Assembly (NCBI GenBank): GCA_026393075.1
Contig: JAPLAW010000020.1
Coordinates: 1-52,893, forward strand
Source of the DNA: Actinomycetota bacterium
GTDB lineage: Bacteria > Actinomycetota > Actinomycetes > Nanopelagicales > Nanopelagicaceae
DNA length: 52,893 bases
Direction: 5' to 3'
The stretch's first letter is position 1. Each line of letters starts with the position of its first letter. Shown one piece after another: positions 25,527-40,757 of the stretch. Made by a program: the position numbers and the translations under genes. The notes under the pieces were generated by a model. That model did not search any database. It was not told the origin of the DNA and saw nothing but the letters and a program-made list of their open reading frames with translations.

Positions 25527-25547
25527 TAGCGCACTAGAGAGGCAGTG

Positions 25548-26465
25548 ATGACAATTAATCAAAATGAACCAGAGTTAGGTCTTCTGCGCACTGAACAAGT
25601 CGACGCGAAGTTCCAACTGCTCGATGTCATGTCTATCTCTGAGCTATTGCAAGCAATGAATGAGAGCGATACCGAAGTTCCTAAAGCAGTTAATGCAATT
25701 TTGCCTCGCATTGAAAAAGCAATTGATGAAGTTGTAGATCGCATGTTACAAGGCGGTCGCTTAGTTTATTTAGGCGCCGGAACTTCTGGGCGACTTGGCG
25801 TCCTTGATGCTGCTGAATGTGGGCCAACTTTTTCAGTAAGCACCGATCAAGTAGTTGCTTTTATTGCCGGCGGAGATTCTGCTTTGCGGTTACCAGCCGA
25901 AGGTGCTGAAGATCGCCCTGAACTTGGTATCGCGGATTTAAAATCTATCAATCTAAAAGCAACTGATTGTGTAGTTGGTATTGCTGCAAGTGGTCGCACG
26001 CCATATGTACTTGGCGCACTTGATTACGCAAATTCTGTCGGCGCCCTAACTATTGCAATTACCTGTAATCCCAATTCGGAAGCTGGCAAACGCAGTGCCC
26101 ATGCTCTCGATGTTGACTCTGGCCCGGAGTTATTAGCTGGATCGACTCGATTGAAATCTGGAACTGCGCAGAAGTTGGTTCTAAATATGATTTCAACCGT
26201 CACCATGGTTCGTCTGGGTAAGACATTTGGAAATTTAATGGTTGATCTACAGATCAGCAATGAAAAATTGCAAGACCGGGCAATTCGAATAATTGAAAAA
26301 GCTACGGGTGCAACCCGGGCTGCTTCAGCTGCCGCGCTAACCGACTCAGGACATGAAGTAAAAGTCGCGATATTGATGCTTTTGTTACACACCGATGCGA
26401 ATTCTGCCAAAGAGCGTTTATCTGCTTCCCAGAATCGAATTCGCCAAGCGCTCACTGAGGGCTAG
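25548..26465 (+). CDS. murQ: N-acetylmuramic acid 6-phosphate etherase
   Basis: 305 residues from the ATG, which has AGAGAGG five bases upstream; the GTG one codon earlier is less well placed. The SIS-domain signature L-G-A-G-T-S-G-R-L-G-V-L-D-A-A-E (about 68-83), A-S-G-R-T-P-Y and G-T-A-Q-K-L-V-L-N-M are the MurQ family motifs, and the length is normal. It cleaves the D-lactyl ether of MurNAc-6-P, giving GlcNAc-6-P, which NagA, encoded divergently, then deacetylates. This is the central step of MurNAc use. Confidence 0.95.
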   Translation: MTINQNEPELGLLRTEQVDAKFQLLDVMSISELLQAMNESDTEVPKAVNAILPRIEKAIDEVVDRMLQGGRLVYLGAGTSGRLGVLDAAECGPTFSVSTDQVVAFIAGGDSALRLPAEGAEDRPELGIADLKSINLKATDCVVGIAASGRTPYVLGALDYANSVGALTIAITCNPNSEAGKRSAHALDVDSGPELLAGSTRLKSGTAQKLVLNMISTVTMVRLGKTFGNLMVDLQISNEKLQDRAIRIIEKATGATRAASAAALTDSGHEVKVAILMLLLHTDANSAKERLSASQNRIRQALTEG

Positions 26466-26516: not shown

Positions 26517-26545
26517 TTGACCTAGCCTCCTTATACCGATAATTT
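26517..26545 (+). promoter_or_regulatory. Promoter of the oligopeptide-type importer operon
   Basis: TTGACC (26517-26522), 17 bases, TAATTT (26540-26545): both boxes and ideal spacing. The predicted start near 26552 gives a leader of about 70 bases that holds two TGAA...TTCA inverted repeats. Confidence 0.7.
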
Positions 26546-26564
26546 TCACGGGTCGGGGAAATCC

Positions 26565-26580
26565 CTGAAGGTTTTTTTCA
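26565..26580 (+). promoter_or_regulatory. Candidate operator, copy 1 of a shared 16-base element
   Basis: CTGAAGGTTTTTTTCA, an imperfect palindrome with TGAA and TTCA arms around 7 bases. It sits about 13 bases after the predicted transcription start. The identical 16 bases recur at 35751-35766 directly before the MurR/RpiR gene. RpiR-family proteins bind palindromes, so this is the best operator candidate; binding is inferred. Confidence 0.5.
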
Positions 26581-26584
26581 CCAT

Positions 26585-26604
26585 ATGAACCAACTCGGGT
26601 TCAT
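26585..26604 (+). promoter_or_regulatory. Inverted repeat in the importer leader
   Basis: ATGAACC and GGTTCAT, perfect 7-base arms with a 6-base centre, lie just after the 16-base element and just before the AAGGAG (26611-26616). It could be a second operator half or a leader hairpin near the ribosome binding site. Confidence 0.4.
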
Positions 26605-26621: not shown

Positions 26622-28133
26622 GTGAAGTTAAGTAAGAAGTTCGCAATATTTAGCATCAGCACCGCATTAGTTGCTGGTGTTGCATTCGTTGCGCCAGCAC
26701 AGGCAGCATCAAAAGATTTAGCAATCGGCGTGACTCTTGATATCGATAAGTTAGACCCACACACCTCGACAAGTTTTTCAACAGTTCGCGCACTTGGTCT
26801 AGTTTATGGTTCATTGGTTGAAGTTGGACCAAAACTCGATATTCGTTCAGGCTTAGCAGCATCATGGGGCTTTAACGCAGATTCAACTGAACTTCGTTTG
26901 AAGCTTCGCAAGAATGTTAAGTTTCATGACGGTTCAGCATTTGATGCTGAAGATGTTAAAGCTTCACTTAATCGCATTCTTGATGTCAACACCAAGGCAG
27001 CTGCTCGTGCAAACATTGCCACGATCACTTCCATCACAGGCTCTGGCTTATCAGTATTGATCAAGTTGAGCGTTCCAAATGCGCCAATTTTGGCAGCTCT
27101 TGATGGCGTAAATATGTCAATGCTTTCAAGCGATGACATTGCAGCTAACAAAATCGGTAAGACTGTAAACGGAACTGGTCCATTCAAATATGTTTCATGG
27201 GAACCAGGACAGTCAGTCAAGCTTGAAAAGAATGTAACCTATTGGAAAGCTCCAGTTAAGCTAGACACTGTTACCTTCCGCATTATTCCAACAGAGGCCT
27301 CAATCTTGGCCGCTTTGAATGCCGGAACAATTCAGTTCTCAGTTTTGACTAGCCCAACTGTTGCCCTTCAAGTTGGCAAGAATCTAAATCTTTATCGCAC
27401 ACCTGGCTTGGGCTATGTAACTCTGCAATTAAATGCTCGAGTTGCTCCGCTCAATAAGCTAGATGTTCGCTTAGCCATTCAGTGCGCAATTAACCGTGCT
27501 GAAGTAGTTAAGACCGCAGCCGCTGGTGAAGCAAAAGTAGTCGGTCCGATCACAAGCCCTGCTTATGCATCAGACCCAGATGATCGCCCATGTCCAAACG
27601 TAGATCTCGCAAAAACTAAGAAGTATTTAGCGGATGCCGGCTATGCAGATGGATTAACAATTAAGGCAATCGTTTCTCCTACTCAGTATGCAACAGCATC
27701 TGGTACAGCACAGAACCTCAAGGCCCAACTTGCAAAAGCTGGAATCAACCTAGAGCTCGATATCCTTGATAACGCAACTTACGTATCACGTTGGTTGGCT
27801 GGTGACTTTGCAGCAGCTGTTGCAAATAATGGTGGACGTATTGATCCAGACACCATGTACACCCGTTATTTCCCATCAACCGGAAATCTAAATAAGGTAG
27901 CTGGTTATTCATCAGCAACCATGGATGCTTTATTCCTAAAGGGTAAAGCAACAGGTCGTGCAGCTGAGCGCAAGCTCATCTACAAGTCGATCTCACAAGA
28001 ACTCGAGAACAACGCAGTCTGGATTTGGTTGTTTGCACCTTATGAGTATCGTGCGGCAGCTAAGAATGTAACTGGCTTTATTCCGCTAGCTACAGGATCC
28101 TTGATTGAGCTTCGCGTAGTTGATCTAAAGTAA
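26622..28133 (+). CDS. Oligopeptide-type ABC transporter substrate-binding protein
   Basis: 503 residues from a GTG with AAGGAG 5 bases upstream. A signal peptide (about 1-28, ending A-P-A-Q-A) has no lipobox cysteine. The mature part matches the SBP_bac_5 family: D-P-H-T-S near the start, V-K-F-H-D-G-S-A-F-D-A-E-D-V-K-A-S (about 101-117) and G-T-G-P-F-K-Y. Such proteins bind di-, oligo- or murein peptides. Being in one unit with anmK and next to murQ, a muropeptide ligand is likely, by inference. A strong hairpin follows, so this gene is probably expressed more than the rest of the operon. Confidence 0.9.
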   Translation: MKLSKKFAIFSISTALVAGVAFVAPAQAASKDLAIGVTLDIDKLDPHTSTSFSTVRALGLVYGSLVEVGPKLDIRSGLAASWGFNADSTELRLKLRKNVKFHDGSAFDAEDVKASLNRILDVNTKAAARANIATITSITGSGLSVLIKLSVPNAPILAALDGVNMSMLSSDDIAANKIGKTVNGTGPFKYVSWEPGQSVKLEKNVTYWKAPVKLDTVTFRIIPTEASILAALNAGTIQFSVLTSPTVALQVGKNLNLYRTPGLGYVTLQLNARVAPLNKLDVRLAIQCAINRAEVVKTAAAGEAKVVGPITSPAYASDPDDRPCPNVDLAKTKKYLADAGYADGLTIKAIVSPTQYATASGTAQNLKAQLAKAGINLELDILDNATYVSRWLAGDFAAAVANNGGRIDPDTMYTRYFPSTGNLNKVAGYSSATMDALFLKGKATGRAAERKLIYKSISQELENNAVWIWLFAPYEYRAAAKNVTGFIPLATGSLIELRVVDLK

Positions 28134-28221: not shown

Positions 28222-29205
28222 TTGTCTTTCGGTGAGAGAATTTCCCGAATCCTGCTCTCGACTCCGGTTTTACGTATCGGAAGTATTTTAAGTACGCTGT
28301 TTGGCATCTCAATATTTGTTTTCTTAGTTCTTCGTGTTATCCCCGGCGACTCTATTGTCGGTGCATTCGGAATTGAAACCGGCTTATTAACGCCCGAGCA
28401 GATTGCTCAACTAAAAGTTTATTACGGCATTGATAAGTCTTTGCCAATGCAATACATATCTTGGATGCAGAGCTTCTTAAGTGGCAACATGGGATATTCA
28501 TATTCCACCGGTATTTCAATCGCTTCACTGACGGCTAAGGCCTTACCGGTAACTATCGAATTAGCCTTGATTGGCACCATTTTGGGTGTAGTTATGGGCA
28601 TTGCTATAGGCACATTTAGTGCACGCAAGCCCGGCAGTATCCGCGACTTTGCTGGCCAACTATTCGGTCTAATGGCACTTGCAGTACCTGGTTTTGTTTT
28701 AAGCACAACGATCGTGACTATCACGGCTAATAAGTTTCATTATTTTCCCAACGGTTATGAATTTGTGCGTCTCTGGGAAGACCCCTGGATGAACTTGCAA
28801 CAAATGATGTTCCCGGGTCTAGTCCTTGGTATTGCAGTAGCTGCACCAGTCATGCGCACAACTAGATCTGCCTTGCTAGAAACAGTTGATAAAGATTTTG
28901 TCCGTACGGCAATTGGCAAAGGTGTTAATGCACGCAAGGTTCAATCGCGTCACGTTCTGCGAAATTCTTTGATTCCGATCGTAACTATGACCGGTATTCA
29001 ATTTGGCTACCTTTTAGGTGGTGCCGTAATTGTCGAGAACATTTTCTCGTTACCGGGAATGGGCCGACAGGTTTTATACGCGATTACTAAACGTGAATAT
29101 GCAACGGTACAGAGCAGCGTCATGGTATTTGCCATCTTATTCATCACCATCAACGTGATAACGGATTTGATCTATCGCAAAATTGACCCCAGGATCAAAA
29201 AATGA
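28222..29205 (+). CDS. Oligopeptide-type ABC permease, DppB/OppB-like
   Basis: 327 residues with about six membrane helices. The N-terminus (R-I-G-S-I-L-S-T-L-F-G-I-S) and V-L-R-V-I-P-G-D are typical of OppB/DppB, and the coupling motif G-K-G-V-N-A-R-K-V-Q-S-R-H-V-L-R-N lies at about 232-248. Begins with TTG; AAGGAG at 28210-28215 fixes it. Overlaps the next gene by 4 bases. Confidence 0.9.
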   Translation: MSFGERISRILLSTPVLRIGSILSTLFGISIFVFLVLRVIPGDSIVGAFGIETGLLTPEQIAQLKVYYGIDKSLPMQYISWMQSFLSGNMGYSYSTGISIASLTAKALPVTIELALIGTILGVVMGIAIGTFSARKPGSIRDFAGQLFGLMALAVPGFVLSTTIVTITANKFHYFPNGYEFVRLWEDPWMNLQQMMFPGLVLGIAVAAPVMRTTRSALLETVDKDFVRTAIGKGVNARKVQSRHVLRNSLIPIVTMTGIQFGYLLGGAVIVENIFSLPGMGRQVLYAITKREYATVQSSVMVFAILFITINVITDLIYRKIDPRIKK

Positions 29206-30059
29206 AGCGCGATCCTTTGAAGCCTAAAGGTGGCTTTTACTATTACATGCAAAGCACGAGTGGAATCGTTGGCGCAATTTTATTATTGTTTATGGTGATT
29301 GTTTCACTGTGTGCCGTTTTTGGCTGGCTCCCGCATGACCCACTCGAGCAAAATGTAGAATTTGCAATGCAAGGGCCAAGTTCAAACTTCTGGTTTGGAA
29401 CCGATGAGTTTGGCCGTGACATATTTTCGCGCTCACTCGACGGCATGCGTAGATCACTTACCGTTTCGGTCTCAGCTGTTTCGATTGCAGCAACTATCGG
29501 CGTGACGCTTGGAATTCTGAGCGGCTATTTGGGACGCTGGTTTGACCAGCTAATCGTGCGTTTGAGCGACGTAATCTTCGCTTTTCCAGCAATTCTGCTT
29601 GCTTTAGCAATTGTTAGCACGCTGGGAAATTCTTGGTATCAAACCTCGCTTGCAATTGCCGTCGTTTACACGCCGATTTTCATTCGCGTTGCACGTGGGC
29701 CAGTATTGACAGTAAAAGAAATGGATTATGTAAAAGTCACTCGAATCTTGGGTTTCTCTTCACTTCGAATTCTGCGTAAACACATTTTGCCGAACGTGAC
29801 TGCCCCGATCGTGGTGCAGGTTGCGCTCTCTCTTTCTTGGGCAATTTTGACTGAATCAGGGCTAAGTTTCTTGGGACTCGGCACCCAACCACCTAACGCA
29901 TCCCTTGGTCTGATGGTTTCCGAGGCACAATCAATTGCTGCCTTTGCATGGTGGGCGCTCTTCTTCCCATCTGCATTTATTACCATCGTGGTAGTTGGAC
30001 TTAACCTTGTTGGAGATGGCTTACGCGATGCACTAGATCCAGCCCGGAGAAGTTCATGA
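29202..30059 (+). CDS. Oligopeptide-type ABC permease, DppC/OppC-like
   Basis: 285 residues. The family-typical F-G-T-D-E-F-G-R-D-I-F-S-R (about 66-78) and the coupling segment R-I-L-G-F-S-S-L-R-I-L-R-K-H-I-L-P-N (about 181-198) are present. Forms the channel with the DppB-like protein. Overlaps its neighbours by 4 bases on each side. Confidence 0.9.
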   Translation: MKRDPLKPKGGFYYYMQSTSGIVGAILLLFMVIVSLCAVFGWLPHDPLEQNVEFAMQGPSSNFWFGTDEFGRDIFSRSLDGMRRSLTVSVSAVSIAATIGVTLGILSGYLGRWFDQLIVRLSDVIFAFPAILLALAIVSTLGNSWYQTSLAIAVVYTPIFIRVARGPVLTVKEMDYVKVTRILGFSSLRILRKHILPNVTAPIVVQVALSLSWAILTESGLSFLGLGTQPPNASLGLMVSEAQSIAAFAWWALFFPSAFITIVVVGLNLVGDGLRDALDPARRSS

Positions 30060-31021
30060 GTAATCCACTTCTCTCGGTAAGCGGTCTCGGAATATCAACA
30101 GTGCAAGATCCTCGCACCCTGGTTAACAGTGTTTCCTTTGAAATTATGCCAGGTGAAGCTGTCGGCGTAGTTGGTGAGAGCGGTTCAGGAAAAACTCTTA
30201 CTGCGTTATCTATTCTAGGTTTACTCCCACGTGGCGTTGCTATTGCTGGCGGTTCAATAATTTTCAATGGCACTGATTTAACAAAAGCAGATCCTGAGAC
30301 TATGCGTAATTTACGTGGCTCCGATATCTCAATGGTTTATCAAGACCCAATGACTGCGCTTAATCCGGTTATGAAGTTAGGTCGACAACTGCTTGAAGTG
30401 ATCGAATCGCATGAGAAATTAGATGACGGTTCGGTTGCTCGAGTTGAGGCCGCCCTACGCGAAGTAGGTATTCCACAGGTAGAACGAGCCATGGAGAGCT
30501 ATCCGCATGAATTTTCTGGCGGCATGCGCCAGCGGGTAATGATTGCAATGGCTTTACTTCTCTCGCCTAAGTTGCTGATCGCTGATGAGCCAACTACGGC
30601 ACTTGATGTAACAATTCAACAACAGATCTTGGCGCTTGTTTCTGAACAACGGCGCAAGCGTGACATGTCGATGCTTTGGATCACTCATGATTTAGGCGTC
30701 GTCGCTAACTTGGTTGATCGACTGATTGTTATGTATGCCGGCAATATCGTCGAAGCCGGAACCGTGCAAGAGATCTTCACTAATCCTCAACACCCTTACA
30801 CCCATGGCTTGTTATCTTCGCTCCCATCACGCACAGATAAATCTCGCAAGCGTTTAACTTCTATTCCTGGCGTACCGCAGAAACCTTGGCTAGTTGGCAA
30901 TACCTGCGGATTCGCCCCTCGTTGTTTTAAAGTAACTGCAGAATGCACTGCTTCTGCGCCTAAGTTAGTTGGTAGCTTAGAAAAATCAGTTGCTTGTTTT
31001 CATCCGATGGGAGATAAGTAA
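30056..31021 (+). CDS. Oligopeptide-type ABC ATPase, DppD/OppD-like
   Basis: 321 residues. Walker A G-E-S-G-S-G-K-T (about 40-47), signature F-S-G-G-M-R-Q-R-V (about 155-163), Walker [13 protein letters not shown] (about 173-184), and the C-terminal oligopeptide-ABC extension with cysteines (C-G-F-A-P-R-C and a later pair) that bind an iron-sulfur cluster in some homologues. One of two ATPases of the importer. Shares one base with the next gene. Confidence 0.9.
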
Positions 31022-31968
31022 TGTCCCTAAATATTGTTAATGTTGAGAAGCGTTACTTAAACCGGGCTTCAGGAACAACTATCAATGCCTTAAACGGGGT
31101 TTCAATTAAAGTCGAAGTTGGTCAAACCTTAGGCATTGTTGGTGAAAGTGGTTGTGGCAAATCAACGCTGGCTCGTGCAGTCGTTGGGCTAGAAGTTCCA
31201 TCAGCTGGCTCAATTACCTGGGATGGCAAAGTAATTGATAATAAAGCTAAAGATCGTTTGAAATCCCATCATTCACAAGTGCAGTTGGTATTCCAAGATC
31301 CATACTCTTCGCTTAACCCACGTCAGCAAATCGAAAATTCAATCGCTGAGGCAATCGAAGTTCACGGTTTAGTTGCTAAAGATAAAATCACCGATCGAGT
31401 TACTGAGCTTCTAGTCATGGTCGGCCTCGATCCTGATTTAAGAAATCGCTACCCGCATCAACTTTCAGGTGGTCAGCGTCAGCGAGTTTGTATTGCTCGC
31501 GCCCTCTCAGCTGAGCCTAAATTGCTGGTTTTAGATGAACCTGTCTCAGCCCTCGATGTTTCGGTGCGAGCAGAAGTAATGAATCTTCTGATTGACCTGC
31601 GCAAAAATTTAGGGCTGACTTATATTTTCATCAGCCACGATTTAGCGATGATTCGATATATCAGCGATGTTATTGCTGTTATGTATTTGGGCAAGATCGT
31701 TGAATTTGGCACCTGGGAAGAAATCATCGAAAACCCAGTTCATCCATATACCAAGGCGTTGATTGCAGCCATGCCTGATCACAGCATTATTGGTGATCCA
31801 ACAATGTTGGCACGTACGCTTGAGGGCGAAGTACCAGATCCGGTTAATTTACCTAGTGGCTGTTCTTTCCATTCTAGGTGCGCACTAGCTGTACCAAGTT
31901 GTTCAATAATTGCACCAACGCTTCGCGAAATTTCTAATGGTCACCTAGTAGCTTGTTCGGAGGTTTAA
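31021..31968 (+). CDS. Oligopeptide-type ABC ATPase, DppF/OppF-like
   Basis: 315 residues. Walker A G-E-S-G-C-G-K-S-T (about 41-49), F-Q-D-P-Y-S-S-L-N-P-R typical of OppF, signature L-S-G-G-Q-R-Q-R-V (about 148-156), Walker B V-L-D-E-P-V-S-A-L-D, and a C-terminal C-S-F-H-S-R-C-A. Second ATPase of the importer. The last codons carry CGGAGG, which serves anmK one base downstream. Confidence 0.9.
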   Translation: MSLNIVNVEKRYLNRASGTTINALNGVSIKVEVGQTLGIVGESGCGKSTLARAVVGLEVPSAGSITWDGKVIDNKAKDRLKSHHSQVQLVFQDPYSSLNPRQQIENSIAEAIEVHGLVAKDKITDRVTELLVMVGLDPDLRNRYPHQLSGGQRQRVCIARALSAEPKLLVLDEPVSALDVSVRAEVMNLLIDLRKNLGLTYIFISHDLAMIRYISDVIAVMYLGKIVEFGTWEEIIENPVHPYTKALIAAMPDHSIIGDPTMLARTLEGEVPDPVNLPSGCSFHSRCALAVPSCSIIAPTLREISNGHLVACSEV

Positions 31969-31969
31969 T

Positions 31970-33139
31970 ATGAAGGTTATCGGCATGATTTCAGGAACTT
32001 CTTACGACGGTATAGATGTTGCCTGTTGTGAGTTTGTGCAGAGCGGAGACTTAGTCGAAGTGCGGGTAATTGGGTTCGAGTCTGTTGCATACACCGATTC
32101 ATTACACGAGATGATCGCAGATTCAATGCCACCTCGTAAAGTGGATATGGAGCGAGTCTGCATTCTAGATACCAAGATTGGCCAAGCATTCAGTGCAGCA
32201 GCTCAAAGTGCTATGAAGAAGTTTAAGTTTGAACCAGATCTTATTGTTAGCCATGGCCAAACTCTGTTTCACTGGATCGACACTGATCACAAAGCAAAAG
32301 GAACTCTGCAGTTAGGTGAGCCAACCTGGATTGCCGAAGAAACTGGCGTGCAAGTTCTATCTAATATTCGCTCACGCGACGTTGCAGCTGGTGGGCACGG
32401 TGCGCCACTTGTAAGTATCGTCGATCAATTATTACTAGGTCACTCTGCGCAACCAGAAGGAGCGCTTAACCTAGGTGGAATTTCAAACATCACGGTGGCG
32501 GGTAGCAACTTGACTCCGCTGGCATATGACATCGGTACTGCTAATTGCCTATTAGATGCCGCTATTTACGCTCATTCTGAGGGCAAATTCTCCTACGACG
32601 CCGATGGCAAGTTAGCTGCAAGCGGAACAGTTGATCAAGCTCTGCTAGCTAAATTTTTAGAAGAGCCTTATTACAAACTTCCAGCGCCGAAATCAACTGG
32701 TAAAGAGTTATTCCATCTGGATTATTTAATTGACTATGTTGGCCCGGTTTCGACGTGGAACATTGCAGATCTAATGGCGACCTTGCTTGAGTTAACTGTC
32801 GAAACAGTTGCGATTGAAGTTGAAAAATTCAAATTAGCTAAGTTATATATTGCAGGTGGCGGTTCAGCTAATCCAGTAATGATGGCACGCCTGCAAGAGC
32901 GCTTAACTAACTGCCAAGTACTTTCAATGCAAGTTCTTGGAATTGATCCGCGTGCTAAAGAAGGCCTGATGTTTGCATTAATTGGTTATCTAGCACTGAA
33001 TGGACAGCCGGGTCAGATTCCTAGTTGCACTGGCGCAAATGGCGAACGCATTCTAGGATCATTGACACCAGGAAAAGGCGCATTCGTTTTGCCACAACGA
33101 CCAAACATCAAGCCAACTAAAATGCGAGTTATTGAGTAA
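31970..33139 (+). CDS. anmK: Anhydro-N-acetylmuramic acid kinase
   Basis: 389 residues, slightly longer than E. coli AnmK. The N-terminal phosphate loop G-M-I-S-G-T-S-Y-D-G-I-D (5-16), S-H-G-Q-T-L-F-H, A-L-N-L-G-G-I-S-N-I-T, Y-D-I-G-T-A-N-C-L-L-D and A-G-G-G-S-A-N-P-V-M are all AnmK motifs. It opens the 1,6-anhydro ring while phosphorylating, giving MurNAc-6-P for MurQ. As last gene of the importer operon it ties that importer to wall fragments. Its 3' end overlaps the convergent acetyltransferase gene by 11 bases. Confidence 0.93.
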   Translation: MKVIGMISGTSYDGIDVACCEFVQSGDLVEVRVIGFESVAYTDSLHEMIADSMPPRKVDMERVCILDTKIGQAFSAAAQSAMKKFKFEPDLIVSHGQTLFHWIDTDHKAKGTLQLGEPTWIAEETGVQVLSNIRSRDVAAGGHGAPLVSIVDQLLLGHSAQPEGALNLGGISNITVAGSNLTPLAYDIGTANCLLDAAIYAHSEGKFSYDADGKLAASGTVDQALLAKFLEEPYYKLPAPKSTGKELFHLDYLIDYVGPVSTWNIADLMATLLELTVETVAIEVEKFKLAKLYIAGGGSANPVMMARLQERLTNCQVLSMQVLGIDPRAKEGLMFALIGYLALNGQPGQIPSCTGANGERILGSLTPGKGAFVLPQRPNIKPTKMRVIE

Positions 33140-33626
33140 TTGCTTTGCGCAACATTTCGATCTGCGGAATCTGCCAACGTTCGTCAGTTTTTTCGCGGCC
33201 AGTCTCGCTAAACCCAAATTTTCGATATAGCCCGATGGCGGTAGGGTTCTCTTTAAAAACCCAGAGCGTTATCTCTTGCTTATCACGTTGCTCCAGATGG
33301 GCAATAACTTCAGTCAACAACTTGCTGCCGACTCCTTTGCCGGCACTTTCTGGTGAAACATATAAGGAAAACAAATGGCCACGACTTTCATCTTCTGCAT
33401 CGTTGCCAAAACTTGCAAAACCTAAGGTCTCATCTTCTATTGCCACTAGTGTGAAACGACCTGGTTTTGGATTAGCTGACGCTGCTAACAAATTAGTAGT
33501 GGTGGCAACATCCATTGATTCGCGGACTTCGGCACTTATTAAGTCCCGGTATGAGATGTTCCAGCAGGCTCGAAATACCGTCACCAGTGAGCCTAAATCA
33601 CTGCTTTCAACTGGTCGGATTAGCAT
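33129..33626 (-). CDS. GNAT family N-acetyltransferase
   Basis: 165 residues. L-Y-V-S-P-E-S-A-G-K-G-V-G-S-K-L-L (about 88-104) binds acetyl-CoA and L-W-V-F-K-E-N-P-T-A-I-G-L-Y-R-K-F-G-F (about 120-138) is the usual end of the fold. Substrate unknown. It is the only reversed gene between murQ and the amino-sugar kinase and has its own TAGACT box 7 bases before its ATG, so it probably does not belong to the pathway operon. Confidence 0.82.
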   Translation of the reverse strand: MLIRPVESSDLGSLVTVFRACWNISYRDLISAEVRESMDVATTTNLLAASANPKPGRFTLVAIEDETLGFASFGNDAEDESRGHLFSLYVSPESAGKGVGSKLLTEVIAHLEQRDKQEITLWVFKENPTAIGLYRKFGFSETGREKTDERWQIPQIEMLRKAITQ

Positions 33627-33653: not shown

Positions 33654-34646
33654 ATGAGTGAAGTAGTTTCTACTCGCGTTAGCACTTACTCACGAGAGCT
33701 GCGCGAACGCTTTGTCACAGCGCTACGAGGTGTTTCGGAATACCAAGTTATTAAGTTTGAGTTGTGTGACGAGTCCGGAACCTGGCATGTAGGCGAAACC
33801 GTTGAGACGCCAAAGATTACTGGTGATACCCATACCCAGATTGTGGCTGAACTCGAAAGCGAAGTTCCTGGGTTAATCATCGGCAAGAAGATTTTCGAAG
33901 CAATTCGGAGTATCAAGGAATCATACTTAACTGGAAGCACAAAAGCGGCAGTTGATATTGCGCTGAATTCAGTGATTGGCAAAGGTGTCCTTCGGGAGTT
34001 CTCAGTTGCTACTGATGTAACTATTCCAATAACTTCAATTAGGAATTTGCCTGCATTAGTGGCAGATCGAGTTACGGCAGGTTTTACCTACTTCAAAGTT
34101 AAAGCAAACAATGAACCGGTATCTGATCTAATTGCGAAACTAGAGCTAATCGAAGAGTTAACCCCATCAGGCTCACACATACGTATTGATGCAAATCAAG
34201 CGTGGGATCTTGGACATACTTCCGAAATTCTGGCAGCTATCTCAGAGAGCGGACTAGTTATAGATTATCTAGAACAGCCAACACCTGCTAGGGACTTTGC
34301 AGCTTTAGCGAAAGTTAAAGCAATTTCCTCAATTCCAATCATGGCTGATGAATCATGTTTCACCCCTGCGGATTTAACTGAGTTAATCTCGCTAAATGCC
34401 ATGGATCTGGTCAATCTAAAATTGCTGAAAGCTGGTGGTTTATCGGTGGCTCGTGAAATGGCAAAAACAGCAGCGACTGCAGGCATTGGCGTTTATATCG
34501 GGAGCATGATGGAAGGCGATCAAAGTTTGAGCGCTGCAGCAACACTTGCGACGGAAGTGGCACCGGATCTAGTTCATGATTTAGATGCCTCGTGGTGGGC
34601 TAAAGAGAGCGATTTACGCTACGAAAGTGGCAGGCTTTACCTATGA
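33654..34646 (+). CDS. L-Ala-D/L-Glu epimerase (dipeptide epimerase)
   Basis: 330 residues of the enolase superfamily, muconate-lactonizing subgroup. Catalytic lysines K148-V-K150 and K256 (N-L-K-L-L-K), metal ligands D179 (R-I-D-A-N-Q), E207 (Y-L-E-Q-P) and D232 (A-D-E-S) are all in place. The pattern of two opposed lysines with M-A-D-E-S and late S-M-M-E-G is that of dipeptide epimerases such as YcjG/YkfB, which turn murein-derived L-Ala-D-Glu into L-Ala-L-Glu for ordinary peptidases. The setting among muropeptide genes supports this over other enolase-family activities. Overlaps the next gene by 4 bases. Confidence 0.85.
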   Translation: MSEVVSTRVSTYSRELRERFVTALRGVSEYQVIKFELCDESGTWHVGETVETPKITGDTHTQIVAELESEVPGLIIGKKIFEAIRSIKESYLTGSTKAAVDIALNSVIGKGVLREFSVATDVTIPITSIRNLPALVADRVTAGFTYFKVKANNEPVSDLIAKLELIEELTPSGSHIRIDANQAWDLGHTSEILAAISESGLVIDYLEQPTPARDFAALAKVKAISSIPIMADESCFTPADLTELISLNAMDLVNLKLLKAGGLSVAREMAKTAATAGIGVYIGSMMEGDQSLSAAATLATEVAPDLVHDLDASWWAKESDLRYESGRLYL

Positions 34647-35695
34647 ATAGCGCTGAAACTTTAACCAAAGTACCTGGCTATTTATTCGCCACTACTAAAA
34701 AAGGTATTCGCTCTTACTCGGCAAATGGATCACGCCAGTGTTTTGGCGTAGCCGAAGAAAAACCTGTCACAGTTAACACCAAGTTTGATTTAGCATCCTT
34801 AACTAAAATTGTCGGAACCACAGCTTCCTTACTTCATCTAATCGAGTTAGGTGAATTGCAGGTAGCAGATCTAGCGAGTAAATATCTAGAATCCTGGCAA
34901 GGCACAGACAAATCTGAAATTACGATTGCAGAACTGCTCTCTCATCAAAGCGGATTAGCAGAATGGCGCCCGCTCTATTTTACAGATGATTTAAAAGAGA
35001 ACGTGACCGAACAGATTTCCAGAATTCCTTTGGCTTACTCAAGAAATTCGGGTCGACGTTATTCTGATCTAGGATTCATCTCACTCGGCGAAATAGTTAA
35101 AGCGATCACTCAAAAAGATTTGCCAAAGGCTTTTGCCGAATTAGTTTTTGAGCCGCTAGGTTTGCAGAACACTTCTTTTGGGCCAATTGCTGGGGAAGTG
35201 GCAGCCACTTCTAAGGGTGATTGGTATGAAAAGAATATGGTCGCAACCAATACTCCGTATAAAGTTGATTTAGATGTTGCAATTTTCCCGAATTGGCGAG
35301 AAAAATATTTAGTCGGCGAAGCTAATGATGGCAATTCTTGTCACCGCCTTGGTGGAATAGCTGGACATGCGGGACTATTCTCAACTGCCGAAGACTTGCT
35401 TATTTTTGCCGAAGCAATCATTGCTAATAAATGGCAGGCACATAACTTTTTATCGGTAGCTGGCGACCCAATGCAGGGGTTGGGTTTTAGAAACTGGCGC
35501 ACCCCAACAAGTACTGGTGAGGAAATTCTTTGGGGGCACACTGGCTTCACCGGAATTGCTTTAGGGATCGCACCTAAGCGCCAAAGTGCTGCCCTGCTTT
35601 TGACCAATCGCTTACATGCCCAGGGTGACCCAACCCCGACTGAGGATCTCTGGCAGCCCTTTTTACAAGACTTTTGTGCTCAAATCGTTATCTAA
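34643..35695 (+). CDS. Serine hydrolase of the beta-lactamase/PBP fold, AmiE-like
   Basis: 350 residues with no signal peptide, so it should be cytoplasmic. Active-site motifs: S52-L-T-K55, Y140-S-D142 and H299-T-G301; G-G-I-A-G-H-A-G-L-F-S-T-A (about 237-249) is shared with the group that includes Bacillus YbbE. As I recall, YbbE (AmiE) is an N-acetylmuramyl-L-alanine amidase of this fold, encoded with murQ and nagZ. Translationally coupled to the dipeptide epimerase, this enzyme may cut MurNAc from the stem peptide after uptake. An esterase or D-amino peptidase role cannot be excluded. Confidence 0.75.
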   Translation: MNSAETLTKVPGYLFATTKKGIRSYSANGSRQCFGVAEEKPVTVNTKFDLASLTKIVGTTASLLHLIELGELQVADLASKYLESWQGTDKSEITIAELLSHQSGLAEWRPLYFTDDLKENVTEQISRIPLAYSRNSGRRYSDLGFISLGEIVKAITQKDLPKAFAELVFEPLGLQNTSFGPIAGEVAATSKGDWYEKNMVATNTPYKVDLDVAIFPNWREKYLVGEANDGNSCHRLGGIAGHAGLFSTAEDLLIFAEAIIANKWQAHNFLSVAGDPMQGLGFRNWRTPTSTGEEILWGHTGFTGIALGIAPKRQSAALLLTNRLHAQGDPTPTEDLWQPFLQDFCAQIVI

Positions 35696-35750
35696 TTACC
35701 CCTAAATCACCCTGAACTTGGCGAAGAGTTTCACCTAGCATTACCACCTG

Positions 35751-35766
35751 CTGAAGGTTTTTTTCA
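35751..35766 (+). promoter_or_regulatory. Candidate operator, copy 2 of a shared 16-base element
   Basis: CTGAAGGTTTTTTTCA, identical to 26565-26580; its last base is the A of the first possible ATG of the regulator gene. A related TGAA-N12-TTCA pair lies at 35713-35732. This placement would suit autoregulation of the regulator and the sugar importer downstream. No convincing -35 box was found for this unit. Confidence 0.5.
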
Positions 35767-36761
35767 TGACTAGCGCGAGGGTGGTGAGTTTGATGGCTAA
35801 GAAAGTCGTAATGACTGAACCAGCTAGTGCCGCGTCTTCAGACCTGTTGGGCCATATTCGCAATTCATTATCGGCTTTCCACGCAACGGAACTTGCAATC
35901 GCTAATTGTATTTTGCAAGATCCAGTTCAAGTGTCGCGGATGAATATTTCAAAATTAGCAGAACATAGCGATACTTCAGTTGCCTCTGTTGTTCGTTTTA
36001 GTAAAACCGTTGGTTATAAAGGTTTTCCAGAATTTCGCATGGCGCTAGTCGGTGAAGTTAGCCGTATGGGCCAAGTTGGTATCGATTCTTCCGAACTCGA
36101 TAGCGGTATCACGGTTGAAGATTCGCCGGCTGAAATAATTAGAAAAATATCAGCTGCTGATGCGCTGGCAATTCAAGCAACTGCTCAAAGGTTAGATGTC
36201 GCAAGTTTTTCCGCCGCTGTTGATGCTTGGGAGAAAGCAAAGACGATCGGGTTATTTGGTGTGGCATCTGGTGGATTCGTAGCAATGGATTTACAGCTTA
36301 AATTAAATCGCCAAGGCAAGAACGCAATTGCTTGGCGTGATATCCACAATGCCCTAACCTCACTCTCACTACTTGGCCCAGGTGATGCACTCGTTGCAAT
36401 CAGCCACAGCGGTACGACAGTAGATACCGTCGATGTGATGCAAGAGTTTAAAAATCGTGGTGTCACAATTATTTTGATTACAAATGCACTGCGTAGCCCA
36501 GCTACCGCAATTGCTGACATTGTTTTGTTCACCTCAGCTCGGGAAACCACATTCCGAAGCGGCGCAACTGCAAGTCGAATTGCGCAATTAACTGTGGTTG
36601 ATTGTCTTTGTGTTGCTTTAGCACAAAGAAACTGGAGTGGCACTCGTGCTGCCCTGGATGAATCTAGAGCGGCTGTGGGAAGCCGCTCCGGAAGAAAGAT
36701 GGTCGAATCCAATACCCGGAAACCTGACCAAAAACCAACCCGCTCTAGAGGAGGAAAATAA
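35766..36761 (+). CDS. MurR/RpiR family transcriptional regulator
   Basis: 331 residues. N-terminal RpiR helix-turn-helix domain (about 24-100; S-K-L-A-E-H-S-D-T-S-V-A-S-V-V-R-F-S-K, then G-Y-K-G-F-P-E-F) and a C-terminal SIS phosphosugar-binding domain (about 130-285; G-V-A-S-G-G, S-H-S-G-T-T). Such proteins sense a phosphorylated sugar; MurNAc-6-P or GlcNAc-6-P is the likely ligand here. A basic tail follows the SIS domain. The start is uncertain: the ATG at 35766 overlaps the candidate operator and lacks a ribosome binding site, while an ATG at 35793 would trim nine residues. First gene of the sugar-importer unit. Confidence 0.88.
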   Translation: MTSARVVSLMAKKVVMTEPASAASSDLLGHIRNSLSAFHATELAIANCILQDPVQVSRMNISKLAEHSDTSVASVVRFSKTVGYKGFPEFRMALVGEVSRMGQVGIDSSELDSGITVEDSPAEIIRKISAADALAIQATAQRLDVASFSAAVDAWEKAKTIGLFGVASGGFVAMDLQLKLNRQGKNAIAWRDIHNALTSLSLLGPGDALVAISHSGTTVDTVDVMQEFKNRGVTIILITNALRSPATAIADIVLFTSARETTFRSGATASRIAQLTVVDCLCVALAQRNWSGTRAALDESRAAVGSRSGRKMVESNTRKPDQKPTRSRGGK

Positions 36762-36777
36762 GTGAAACTCACTTCAC
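36762..36777 (+). promoter_or_regulatory. GTGAA/TTCAC inverted repeat at the sugar binding-protein start
   Basis: GTGAA (36762-36766) and TTCAC (36773-36777) with a 6-base centre, on the first codons of the gene. It resembles the TGAA...TTCA arms of the candidate operators, but it is short and coding, so it may be chance. Confidence 0.25.
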
Positions 36778-38057
36778 GCCGCACCCGCGGCTTGGTAGCA
36801 GCTGCTTTCGCTGTTGGATCAATCGTTGTTCCAGCAGTGGCCGCTCTACCTGCAAATGCAGCTACAGAATTAACATTCTGGAGCTGGCGTCCAGAAGATA
36901 AAGCTTTCTACGAAAAGCAGATTGCAATCTTCCAAGAAACAAATCCAAGTATCAGCATCAAGTTCACTCCATACGTAGCAACTGAGTACAACGCGATTCT
37001 TGCAACTGCGCTAACTGCAGGTAAGGGTCCAGATCTACTTCAGCTACGTCCATACGGTGGTATGTCTGCACTTTCAGATGCAGGAAACTTTGTTCCACTA
37101 ACAACAAAAGATGTTCCTGCGTTAGGAAAGCTTGCGCCAGGAATCTTAGCAGCGGCACAGGGATACACAGATAAGCGTCAATTTGGTGTCCCATATGCAG
37201 CATCAGTAATGGGTGTTTGGTACAACCCAGAACTATTCGCTAAGGCCGGTATTCGCCAGACTCCAACAACTTTTGATTCATTCATTAACACTTTGAATCG
37301 TCTAAAGGCAGCTGGAATCCAACCACTTGCTAACTCAAGCGGTAACCCAGGAAATGGTCCAGGTCTCGAGCAAATGCATGCGACAATCGCACCTACTTTC
37401 TACGGTGGAAATACATATTTCAACGATCTAGTTGCTGGACGAACAACATTTACTAACAAGGCATACGTTGAAGGACTTGAAGCCGTGAAGACACTTTCAA
37501 AGTACTTCCCAGCTGGCCATGAAGGTATTGACTACAACACCGCACGTTCATTGTTCGCAACCGGTAAGGCTGCGATCTATATCGGCGGAAACTACGAACT
37601 TACCTACTTCAAGCAGATTAATCCCTCTGCAAGCATTGGTTGGTTCCAGGCTCCAGCAAAATCAGCTGGCTCACCTAAGTTCGTAACTGCATGGGGCGAT
37701 GGTTCATATGCAATTAATGCTAAGACTGCTAACAAGGCTGCTGCAATGAAGTTCTTGAACTTCTTGGCATCTAAGCAATACAGTCAAGCAATGGCTGATG
37801 AAATCTTCGTAATTCCAGTAGCTCCATATGTGAAGATCTCAGATCCTGTTGTAAACAAGATCAACTCAGCTCGTGCTCAGTTCAGCACACCATTCTTGAA
37901 CGTAGTTGGTTTCCGTTTCGGAACTCCAACTTCTTCAAACATCCTCCAACCTGGTCTCCAGAAGTTGGTTGCTGGTGGAACTACAGCTGCTGCCCTTGCA
38001 AAGGACACTCAGGCTGCAGTTGCATCCTGGTACAAGCCACAAGCTGGTAAAGAATAA
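36762..38057 (+). CDS. Sugar ABC transporter substrate-binding protein
   Basis: 431 residues from a GTG directly after the regulator stop, with AGAGGAGG at 36748-36755. A twin-basic signal peptide (R-R-T-R-G, about 1-30, ending P-A-N-A) lacks a lipobox cysteine. The mature part is SBP_bac_1: L-T-F-W-S-W-R-P-E-D at the start, a T-P-Y-V-A-T-E-Y-N-A segment, and W-G-D-G-S-Y-A-I-N late. The codon choice is visibly even and C-rich compared with neighbours, as in highly expressed genes. Ligand probably an amino sugar (GlcNAc, MurNAc or a disaccharide), inferred from the gene context. Confidence 0.9.
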   Translation: MKLTSRRTRGLVAAAFAVGSIVVPAVAALPANAATELTFWSWRPEDKAFYEKQIAIFQETNPSISIKFTPYVATEYNAILATALTAGKGPDLLQLRPYGGMSALSDAGNFVPLTTKDVPALGKLAPGILAAAQGYTDKRQFGVPYAASVMGVWYNPELFAKAGIRQTPTTFDSFINTLNRLKAAGIQPLANSSGNPGNGPGLEQMHATIAPTFYGGNTYFNDLVAGRTTFTNKAYVEGLEAVKTLSKYFPAGHEGIDYNTARSLFATGKAAIYIGGNYELTYFKQINPSASIGWFQAPAKSAGSPKFVTAWGDGSYAINAKTANKAAAMKFLNFLASKQYSQAMADEIFVIPVAPYVKISDPVVNKINSARAQFSTPFLNVVGFRFGTPTSSNILQPGLQKLVAGGTTAAALAKDTQAAVASWYKPQAGKE

Positions 38058-38070
38058 ATAAGTAAGTAAG

Positions 38071-38115
38071 AGCTGGGTGCAGGGTTAAACCTGCACCCAG
38101 CTTCTTTAATATTTT
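38071..38115 (+). terminator. Hairpin between sugar binding-protein and permease genes
   Basis: AGCTGGGTGCAGG and CCTGCACCCAGCT make a perfect 13-base-pair stem with a GTTAAA loop (38071-38102), followed by TCTTTAATATTTTTT. As in the oligopeptide importer, it sits right after the binding-protein gene and probably limits read-through into the permeases. Confidence 0.75.
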
Positions 38116-38123
38116 TTAGAAAG

Positions 38124-39050
38124 ATGGAAATGCAAAGCAGAACCCTGAAACAACAGCAACGAAAGTTCATTTGGATTTTCCTCGCACCAGGACTTTTAAC
38201 GATTCTTGTTTTCACCACAATTCCTGCTATCTCAACTTTGAGTTACTCTTTCTTTAAATGGGAAGGTTTCGTACGCGGTTCCTTTGCTGGTTTTGAAAAT
38301 TTTCAAAATCTATTTAAGTTCCCGTGGCGCGATCAATTCTTTGCAGCCCTAGCGCACAACACAATTGTCTTTATCGCAATCATGATTATTCAGACTTCAC
38401 TTGGCATGTTAATTGCCTACGCACTATTTAGATTAAAACGCGGACAACGTTTTTTCCGCACAGTTACTTTTCTGCCAGTTATTTTCTCATTAGTAATTGT
38501 GGGCTATATGTGGCAAGTAATGCTTAATTCTTATTTTGGACCAATCAATAAAATTCTGACCGATATTGGTTTAGAAAGTTGGGCGCAACCTTGGCTGGGG
38601 CAAACCTCAACAGCGCTTCCAACACTGGTTTTTATTAACTTGTGGCGCTGGGTTGGATTTCCGGCAATCATCTTTCTGGCTGGCTTAAACGCAATTAGTA
38701 ATGACTTCATTGAAGCGGCAAAGATTGACGGCGCTAAGGAAGGTCAAATATTCCGCAAGATTTTATTCCCGTTACTTGCGCCTTCAATGACAATTATTAC
38801 GATCCTTACATTTATCGGCGCCTTTGAATGGTTTGATCTGCCCTATGTAATTGGTGGCACGGTCGGTAGTCCGGCCGGCGCAACTGACACGTTGGCGCTT
38901 ATGTTCTACCGACTTTCCTTTGGTAGCGCTGATTCTGTTTCAAATGACATTGGCGTGGGCTCAGCACTCGGGGTAATTATTTTCATCATCGTAGGCGTTG
39001 GCGCTGGTGTAGGTTCTAATTTGATGCGTCGTCGTGAGGTAGAGCAATGA
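38124..39050 (+). CDS. Sugar ABC permease, MalF/UgpA-like
   Basis: 308 residues with six predicted membrane helices. The EAA coupling loop E-A-A-K-I-D-G-A-K-E-G-Q-I-F-R-K-I-L-F-P-L-L lies at about 195-216. Typical CUT1 family permease. Another ATG two codons downstream is a possible start. Overlaps the second permease by 4 bases. Confidence 0.9.
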   Translation: MEMQSRTLKQQQRKFIWIFLAPGLLTILVFTTIPAISTLSYSFFKWEGFVRGSFAGFENFQNLFKFPWRDQFFAALAHNTIVFIAIMIIQTSLGMLIAYALFRLKRGQRFFRTVTFLPVIFSLVIVGYMWQVMLNSYFGPINKILTDIGLESWAQPWLGQTSTALPTLVFINLWRWVGFPAIIFLAGLNAISNDFIEAAKIDGAKEGQIFRKILFPLLAPSMTIITILTFIGAFEWFDLPYVIGGTVGSPAGATDTLALMFYRLSFGSADSVSNDIGVGSALGVIIFIIVGVGAGVGSNLMRRREVEQ

Positions 39051-39874
39051 TCAACAAAATAATCACTGGCACATTTTTTAAAGCGGTATTAGTTATTAAT
39101 GCGTTAATGGTTTTGCTGCCAGTTTTCTTCTTACTTAACTCGGCGTTACGTGAGACAGGTAGTTTTGGCGCAAATCCACTTGAACTTGCCCGAGATCCCG
39201 AATGGAACAACTTCACGCAGGTTTGGGCAGATGGCGAGTTCCCAAACTTCTTGAAGAACTCATTGATCGTTACTTTAGGTTCATTGGTTGTGATTTTGAT
39301 CTGCGCACTCGGTGCCGGCTTCATCTTGGGGCGCTATCAATTTAAGGGCAATAGTTTGATTTATGGTTTCGTCCTGACTGGCATGTTGGTTCCAGCAAAA
39401 CTTGCAATCTTGCCACTATTCATCCAATTAAAATGGATGAACTTAATCGATTCGCATTTTGGCTTAATTCTGGTTTACGCATCTGGCGCTTTACCTGCGG
39501 CAATTTTTATTATGGCGGGTTTCTTCAGATCGCTGCCTGCAGATATCGATAGTGCGGCACGCATTGATGGCGCTTCAGAATTTCAGCTACTGCGATTAGT
39601 CCTAGCCCCATTGGTGCGACCTGGTTTAGCAATCGTGGCAATTTACTCAGCGATTCCGATCTGGAATGACTTCTTCTTGCCGCTGGTATTCCTGCAAAGC
39701 CCGGAGAAAAAGACGATTATGCAAGGTCTAACCCTCTTCTTTGGTGAGTATTCCTCTCAATGGGGCGTGCTTTTCGCCGGTTTAACTATCGCTGCGCTAC
39801 CACTGATCATCTTGTACTTACTTCTTTCCGAACAATTTATTAAGGGACTTACTGCCGGAGCTGTGAAAGGCTAG
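39047..39874 (+). CDS. Sugar ABC permease, MalG/UgpE-like
   Basis: 275 residues, six membrane helices, EAA loop S-A-A-R-I-D-G-A-S-E-F-Q-L-L-R (about 166-180). It completes the channel of the sugar importer. No ATPase gene of the MalK/UgpC/MsiK type is present nearby, so the importer must borrow one encoded elsewhere, as DasABC and NgcEFG do with MsiK in Streptomyces. Confidence 0.9.
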   Translation: MINKIITGTFFKAVLVINALMVLLPVFFLLNSALRETGSFGANPLELARDPEWNNFTQVWADGEFPNFLKNSLIVTLGSLVVILICALGAGFILGRYQFKGNSLIYGFVLTGMLVPAKLAILPLFIQLKWMNLIDSHFGLILVYASGALPAAIFIMAGFFRSLPADIDSAARIDGASEFQLLRLVLAPLVRPGLAIVAIYSAIPIWNDFFLPLVFLQSPEKKTIMQGLTLFFGEYSSQWGVLFAGLTIAALPLIILYLLLSEQFIKGLTAGAVKG

Positions 39875-39878
39875 GGGT

Positions 39879-40757
39879 ATGAGTTACTTAGGAATAGATG
39901 CTGGTGCAACCGCTACTAAATGGGCTTTATATGATGGCTCGCAGATAGTGGATTCAGGAAAATGTGCGGCAATGGATGGCCACATTTACCGACCTGAATC
40001 AAAAGCACGTGCAAATGAAGTATTAGCCGAGATCTCTAAAGCAGTAAACGGTGCAGAAATAAGCGGCGTCTTTGCCGGCATCACTGGCGCTGCTTCCGAA
40101 GATAGTGCGACCGACCCGCTAGGCCAGATTTTTCATACCCACTTTCCAAATGCCAAAGTTCGCATTGTTCACGATATCGAGTTGGCGTATTTCGCAAACT
40201 TTGAAGTTGGTGACGGAATTTTGTTATATGCCGGCACCGGGTCAGTTGCCATGTATGTCGATGATGAAGCCGGCCCAGTTCGCGCCGGTGGTTGGGGTTA
40301 TTTGTTAGGCGATGAAGGTGGCGCATTCTGGATTGGCCGCGAATCAATTCGTTGGGTGCTGGCCGGGCTTGATACTGGCGAAGAAGTTGAACCAGATTCT
40401 TTAAGTGATGTGATTTTAAAACAAATCAATGCAACGAATTGGGATGAAATAAAAGCATTTGTATATTCTAGCGAGCGTTCAGAGATTGCTAAGTTAGCGG
40501 CAACTGTAGGTCACCTGGCAGATTCTGGAAATGCTGATGCACAAGGAATTATTTATGAAGCCAGTCAGTTCTTAATTGCTTTAGTACATCAGCTCGATAC
40601 GCAAATAGATAATGCGCCGCGCATTGTGATAGCCGGGGGAGTCTGCCAAGAAGGTTCGTTTATGGCGAAAGCTCTTCATTCGTTCTTTAGTGAGCGAATT
40701 AGTATTTCTGATTGCGATATTGCTCAGCGTGCAGCTGAATTAGCCCAAGACATTTAG
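39879..40757 (+). CDS. BadF/BadG-family kinase, probably for N-acetylglucosamine or MurNAc
   Basis: 292 residues of the ASKHA fold. Phosphate-1 loop G5-I-D-A-G-A-T-A-T-K-W-A (5-16), D-I-E-L-A-Y (about 98-103), Y-A-G-T-G-S-V-A (about 117-124), G-G-W-G-Y-L-L-G-D-E-G-G-A (about 137-149) and I-A-G-G-V-C (late) match the BadF group that includes eukaryotic-type GlcNAc kinase and, as I recall, clostridial MurK. Sited last in the sugar-importer unit, it would phosphorylate incoming sugar at O-6 for NagA or MurQ. Its stop abuts the radA stop with no gap. Confidence 0.85.
   Translation: MSYLGIDAGATATKWALYDGSQIVDSGKCAAMDGHIYRPESKARANEVLAEISKAVNGAEISGVFAGITGAASEDSATDPLGQIFHTHFPNAKVRIVHDIELAYFANFEVGDGILLYAGTGSVAMYVDDEAGPVRAGGWGYLLGDEGGAFWIGRESIRWVLAGLDTGEEVEPDSLSDVILKQINATNWDEIKAFVYSSERSEIAKLAATVGHLADSGNADAQGIIYEASQFLIALVHQLDTQIDNAPRIVIAGGVCQEGSFMAKALHSFFSERISISDCDIAQRAAELAQDI

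Follow-up and report, generated by a model that had tools for sequence, protein, structure and literature searches.

A TGAA-N7-TTCA dyad as the probable operator of an RpiR-family regulator at a peptidoglycan-recycling locus of an uncultured actinobacterial group

Two importer gene units in a 52,893-nucleotide stretch of actinobacterial DNA (hereafter the window) are preceded by the same 16 bases, which raises the question of whether these bases are the operator of the regulator encoded in the second unit. As an earlier note on this DNA had reported, the 16-mer CTGAAGGTTTTTTTCA is present twice in exact form, at 26565-26580 and at 35751-35766, both on the plus strand, and every other place in the window is at least three mismatches away from it. 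In the whole genome assembly (1.42 Mb in 70 contigs, 94% complete), these two copies are the only exact ones and the next-closest site has two mismatches. The note had also cautioned that a 16-base repeat could arise by chance over the window, and shuffling bears this out. The window contains five repeated 16-mers, three of which are overlapping frames of a single 18-mer repeat, while 100 dinucleotide-shuffled windows contain a mean of 1.54 repeated 16-mers, with at least one in 71 of the 100. The repetition of a 16-mer is thus weak evidence by itself, and the case for an operator must rest on placement and conservation.

The two units and their surroundings are listed in Table 1. Unit 1 comprises a peptide-type ABC importer, anmK, an opposite-strand GNAT gene, an epimerase-like gene and a serine hydrolase. 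Its oppA-like gene begins with GTG at 26622, and nagA, like murQ, sits just upstream of the unit. The four ORFs after oppA are presumably the importer's permeases and ATPases, names that we assigned from their position. Unit 2 comprises an RpiR-family regulator, a sugar ABC importer and a nagK-like kinase. The GNAT acetyltransferase gene (33129-33626, minus strand) lies antisense within the opp-anmK-epimerase unit, an arrangement that is kept in most of the unit-bearing relatives.

Table 1. Coordinates of the putative regulatory sites and of the genes around them in the window.
Feature	Coordinates	Strand	Remarks
murQ, MurNAc-6-P etherase	25545..26465	+	Directly 5' of unit 1, without motif; TIGR00274 370.2 bits, cut-off 302
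Putative opp-unit promoter, TTGACC, 17 nt, TAATTT	26517..26545	+	Conserved in relatives
Proposed degenerate site I, TACCGATAATTTTCA	26534..26548	+	Overlaps -10 element; putative role
Predicted operator copy 1 (site II), TGAAGGTTTTTTTCA	26566..26580	+	Head of opp unit; about +15 to +29 from predicted transcription start
oppA-like solute-binding protein (SBP_bac_5), first gene of unit 1	26622..28133	+	PF00496, E 1.5e-75
Four ORFs, presumed opp-like importer permeases and ATPases	28222..31968	+	ORF list, synteny in relatives
anmK, anhydro-N-acetylmuramic acid kinase	31970..33139	+	PF03702, E 5.8e-104; NF007146 493.8 bits, cut-off 440
Enolase-superfamily epimerase-like gene and serine hydrolase (beta-lactamase fold)	33654..35695	+	PF13378, PF00144
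Site I counterpart before rpiR, GGCGAAGAGTTTCAC	35720..35734	+	Outer arms retained, -10 core altered
Predicted operator copy 2 (site II), identical to copy 1	35752..35766	+	Head of rpiR-sugar ABC-nagK unit
rpiR, RpiR-family regulator (HTH_6 and SIS)	35793..36761	+	PF01418, PF01380; start taken from relatives
Sugar ABC importer, SBP_bac_1 binding protein and two permease ORFs	36762..39874	+	Pfam (binding protein), ORFs, synteny
nagK-like amino-sugar kinase (BadF/BcrAD family)	39879..40757	+	PF01869; NCBIfam NagK_SO3507 83.6 bits, below cut-off of 370

By its sequence, the regulator is a member of the RpiR family of sugar-phosphate-responsive regulators, with an N-terminal HTH_6 domain (PF01418, 62.5 bits; cut-off 28.3) and a C-terminal SIS domain (PF01380, 69.3 bits; cut-off 25). 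Its score against the MurR equivalog NF012026 is 121.8 bits, below the curated cut-off of 408, and its best NCBIfam match, NF008458 (MurR/RpiR family), reaches 167.3 bits, below the cut-off of 378. The SIS domain matches the E. coli MurR chains 7en5-7en7 (E = 1.7e-20 for 7en5). Because the regulators of several relatives align from residue 9-10 of the reading that begins at the first ATG (35766), the true start of rpiR is probably the ATG at 35793 (MAKK...). The second copy of the 16-mer had been described as sitting on the start of the MurR/RpiR gene. This is an artefact of the first ATG, and the likely start is 27 nt downstream of the motif.

We next searched for the motif upstream of orthologous genes, a check that the earlier note had proposed. 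The family set comprises 151 genomes, 27 with a match to the regulator, and the order-wide set 296 genomes, 36 with a match; the 35 rpiR upstream regions analyzed are from the 27 and from 8 of the 9 further genomes, the ninth (G159) being left out. TGAA-N7-TTCA is found before rpiR without mismatch in 23 of the 35 regions, with one mismatch in 6 and with two mismatches in 6, that is, within one mismatch in 29/35. When these regions, cut at slightly different limits, are dinucleotide-shuffled, the means are 0.22 exact motifs and 4.32 within one mismatch. The intergenic placement of both copies had been judged unlikely to be due to chance, and this same placement recurs in the related genomes. 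Among 8 genomes that were unused in recognizing the pattern, 3 have an exact motif, 3 have one mismatch and 2 are without it (one with a buried rpiR); one of the exact cases, G261, adds little, its regulator being 94-95% identical to that of the window. In control upstream regions, the exact motif is absent before clpC (0/5), lysS (0/4), radA (0/10) and murQ (0/25). Given its absence in 25 genomes, murQ is probably outside of the regulon. The six rpiR regions beyond one mismatch are those of G003, G094, G295, G128, G021 and G170. In the first three, rpiR lies directly 3' of the hydrolase gene inside the opp operon and is without a head of its own; in G021, TCGAAATTTTTTTCA stands at the place where the motif is expected; and in G170 the rpiR head is present and the motif is missing.

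To describe the motif we built a logo from 22 non-window sites that are less than 80% identical. Their source list has 28 rows, two of them from the window, and is limited to sites accompanied by TTGAC or TTGCT and by a -10-like block from which 26-29 bases lead to the motif; the logo is conditioned on this choice. Six positions of the 15-mer (G2, A3, A4, T11, T12 and C14) never vary; T1 is found in 20/22 sites and T13 and A15 in 21/22. The mean information is 1.39 bits per column in the motif versus 0.25 before it and 0.27 after it, and conservation is stronger in the T-rich right half of the dyad than in the left. These data bear on the simplest alternative, namely that the two copies are a chance repeat or, before rpiR, a ribosome-binding site followed by a T-rich spacer (GAAGG-T7-CATG). 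Repeated 16-mers are common in shuffled windows and GAAGG before the first ATG does look like a Shine-Dalgarno sequence. However, the relatives start later, mostly with purine-rich stretches between motif and start, and conservation covers TGAA and TTCA but not the GG at motif positions 5-6, so we reject the ribosome-binding reading of GAAGG. A chance repeat is likewise rejected, given the conservation before rpiR and the genome-wide specificity of the composite pattern described below, and we regard this whole alternative as scarcely credible.

The only other strongly conserved stretch near the motif is GGCGATAATTTTCAC, which contains the -10 element and whose distance to TGAA over 29 sites is 31 in 25, 32 in 3 and 30 in 1. 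The first copy had been said to follow a good promoter, and the hexamers TTGACC (26517-26522) and TAATTT (26540-26545), separated by 17 nt, are conserved in relatives, although a strict sigma-70 scan does not call them. We infer a transcription start near 26552, which would place the motif at about +15 to +29, a position suited to repression. The right half of the motif, TTTTCA, has a counterpart 32 bp upstream within the -10 block, with a mean of 5.36 of 6 matches over 28 sites; at the other steps from 26 to 39, the repeat reaches at most 3.25 of 6. Based on this recurrence, we propose that the block also contains a second, weaker operator site (site I). The left half of site I mismatches TGAA, and -10 function could account for part of its conservation. 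The exact 14-mer GCGATAATTTTCAC is found in 14/27 regulator genomes versus 4/124 others, and therefore the block is more than a general promoter element.

A T-rich element between promoter and gene may instead work in the RNA, by supplying the U-tract of a terminator or attenuator in the leader or as part of a 5' untranslated hairpin. One 6-bp stem of the opp leader (26553-26568), which ends directly 5' of the T run, is scored as terminator-like, and similar stems are found in a few relatives. Against this, the mean folding z-score of the leaders is -0.26 over 28 sites, with only 2/28 below -2, the motif by itself folds at 0 to -1.3 kcal/mol, and a terminator leaves the invariant GAA/TTCA and the fixed distance to the -10 block unexplained. 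As average leader folding is unremarkable and the stem at 26553-26568 is not generally shared, we reject a role as RNA hairpin or attenuator, which we consider very improbable. As a separate observation, the opp leader contains an inverted repeat, TGAACC-N6-GGTTCA, between the predicted operator and the Shine-Dalgarno sequence (26585-26604). The oppA leaders of G076, G007 and G021 have a stable stem of unrelated sequence in the same place (z of about -2.9 to -4.0), which is absent in five others examined. Possibly, the inverted repeat is an mRNA-stabilizing stem.

In the relatives, the position of the motif tracks the heads of transcription units. For instance, in G076, G043, G124 and G070, as in the window, opp and rpiR lead separate units and the motif is found at both heads. 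The opp unit of G142 begins with rpiR, sbp forms a separate unit, and the motif is at the rpiR and sbp heads. In G003 and G094, the rpiR buried in the opp operon has no copy and the motif is only at the oppA head. The oppA heads of G007 and G021 carry the motif with one mismatch, and the oppA-led units of G017, G062, G114, G128 and G048 are without it, so joint control of both importers is, as judged from motif placement, not universal across relatives. The proposal that the element controls both importers and the regulator itself follows from the layout in the window.

The motif also tracks the presence of the regulator. We combined the -10 block and the motif at fixed spacing into a composite pattern, ATNATTTNC-N18-TGAA-N7-TTCA, which has 24 exact matches in the 151 genomes. 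Of these, 23 are at rpiR or oppA heads in 20/27 regulator-bearing genomes, and the remaining one is in G033, among the 124 genomes without the regulator (20/27 versus 1/124; Fisher P = 4e-18, a value that ignores the relatedness of the genomes). Owing to this relatedness, the genome counts given here are likewise not independent of one another. The window's own genome has no further exact composite matches. Matches with one mismatch away from heads also occur in genomes without RpiR. Of the pathway genes, oppA is found in 17/151 genomes, every one of them regulator-bearing, murQ co-occurs perfectly with the regulator (27/27 regulator genomes versus 0/124 others), and none of the 151 family genomes has oppA or murQ without the regulator. 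One case is G128 (L063), which encodes the same gene set with a regulator of only 35% identity and has no motif at any head. The recognition helix, near-invariant in the 25 family orthologs compared (TS[VAI][AS][ST]VVRF[SA]K), reads TSQATAVRFARK in G128 and ISQSSIVKFAQK in E. coli MurR, and both differences agree with the absence of the motif there. It seems that the regulator of G128 was replaced together with its operators.

A structural precedent for the half-site comes from NanR of Streptococcus pneumoniae, also an RpiR-family protein. In the account of its solved DNA complex (PMC12713135), the 18-bp consensus site is TCTGAAACTACTTTCAAA, a near-palindrome with TGAAA/TTTCA half-sites; Arg56 approaches the G of TGAAA, and a G-to-T change abolishes binding. 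A possible weak half-site about 23 bp off is also described (PMC12713135). Judging from an alignment offset of 12, the counterpart of Arg56 is predicted to be Arg68 here (numbered from 35793). Unlike the proposed operator, the NanR half-sites are one base closer (consensus TGAA-N6-TTCA) and NanR is an activator that binds a promoter-distal site and serves a sialic-acid pathway.

A further alternative is that the dyad is the operator of another transcription factor of the same pathway, with RpiR acting elsewhere or not at all. TGAAA...TTTCA words are used by other regulators, for example by PtxS of Pseudomonas, whose site is given as TGAAACCGGTTTCA (PMC5902321). However, presence of the site tracks RpiR across the 151 genomes and the site is missing where the regulator is only 35% identical (G128), it precedes rpiR itself in most genomes, and its half-site is the same as that of the RpiR-family protein with a solved DNA complex. 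We therefore consider another factor improbable, and propose that the 15-bp TGAA-N7-TTCA dyad is very probably the operator of the regulator encoded in unit 2. The earlier note had reached the same assignment, which conservation, placement at unit heads and confinement to regulator genomes now support.

How would such an operator work? In the proposed mechanism, the two helix-turn-helix domains of a regulator dimer would read the TGAA(R)/TTTCA half-sites. Bound just downstream of the start, the regulator would block the opp-like muropeptide/peptide unit (oppABCDF-anmK-epimerase-hydrolase) as well as its own unit (rpiR-sugar ABC importer-nagK). A tetramer would probably also grip the weaker half-site that lies 32 bp upstream within the -10 block and thereby occlude the promoter, as reported for E. 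coli MurR. An intracellular cell-wall sugar phosphate, most likely MurNAc-6-P, would release the regulator, such that both importers would be induced upon arrival of peptidoglycan fragments. Repression by occlusion with a sugar phosphate as inducer is the most likely mode. MurNAc-6-P is the substrate of MurQ, and the perfect co-occurrence of MurQ together with the similarity of the SIS domain to that of E. coli MurR favors MurNAc-6-P over GlcNAc-6-P as the putative effector.

One close comparison is E. coli MurR, an RpiR-family repressor beside murQ, as here. A MurR tetramer is proposed to bridge two promoter-overlapping sites that are 17 bp apart and span 47 bp (PMC12713135). If the sites are 15 bp each, 15+17+15 = 47 bp gives a 32-bp step, which is the step of the TTTTCA repeat in our sites. 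Among 15-mer direct repeats at steps of 15 to 79 in the E. coli murR-murQ gap, the best is at 32 bp, with 11 of 15 matches; shuffles of the gap reach 11 of 15 at some step in 170/500 cases and at step 32 in 5/500, and the repeat is only suggestive. TGAA-N7-TTCA is absent from the murR-murQ intergenic region. The E. coli system differs in its half-site sequence and recognition helix, in having a PTS where ABC importers are found here, and in that murQ here has no motif in front. HexR, another RpiR-family regulator, offers a second comparison: it has a TTGT-N7/8-ACAA dyad of about the same spacing, and some Pseudomonas sites are at or downstream of the start (PMC5902321). The half-site and pathway of HexR differ from those proposed here.

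The second copy in the window, before rpiR, has no recognizable promoter: a -35-like hexamer is missing where one would be expected, and AGAG takes the place of the relatives' -10 core TAAT. Its site I counterpart nonetheless matches the block of the relatives at 12 of 15 positions, and the step from site I to site II is one base longer, the spacing being 32 instead of 31. Comparison of the window with the related sequence L033 shows two unchanged blocks, one of 28 nt that includes the motif and one of 19 nt (GAAGAGTTTCACCTAGCAT), with differences between them and on either side; AGAG replaces the TAAT core despite the unchanged GAAGAGTTTCACCTAGCAT block. In both, the rpiR promoter (35700-35735) appears decayed while the flanking arms and the operator motif are intact. 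The copy may act as a roadblock to transcription that runs on from the opp unit, or it may be a relic. Loss of the -10 core with persistence of the site I arms and site II would make it a bridging or roadblock site, not a promoter operator.

Tentatively, and with less conviction than for the dyad itself, we suggest a composite operator in which a strong 15-bp dyad past the start is paired with a weak second copy that forms part of the -10 element, the two being held about three turns of the helix (32 bp) apart. E. coli MurR may use the same ruler with other half-sites, such that evolution would have kept the span of the tetramer rather than the DNA word, and the rpiR copy of the window would have become a bridging or roadblock site. 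Recent structural work on the RpiR family leaves the positioning of the tetramer on DNA open (PMC12713135), and the approximately 30 promoters assembled here are a natural data set on this question.

As a type of switch the predicted operator is ordinary, and the bacterial group is little studied. The titles of related contigs read actinobacterium, Actinomycetia or Actinomycetota, and the literature that we searched contains no description of such a regulon in this group. Our analysis offers a specific candidate operator for peptidoglycan recycling in uncultured actinobacteria of this group, together with a small putative regulon of two units. Lastly, two other repeats in the window are recorded. 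A palindrome containing TTGAAAATTTTCAA lies in the sugar-permease gene (38291-38308) and surfaced as a self-overlapping repeated 16-mer, and the 18-base sequence AAAGAAAGTAACCAAGAC is found as an exact direct repeat at 11087 and 16890.
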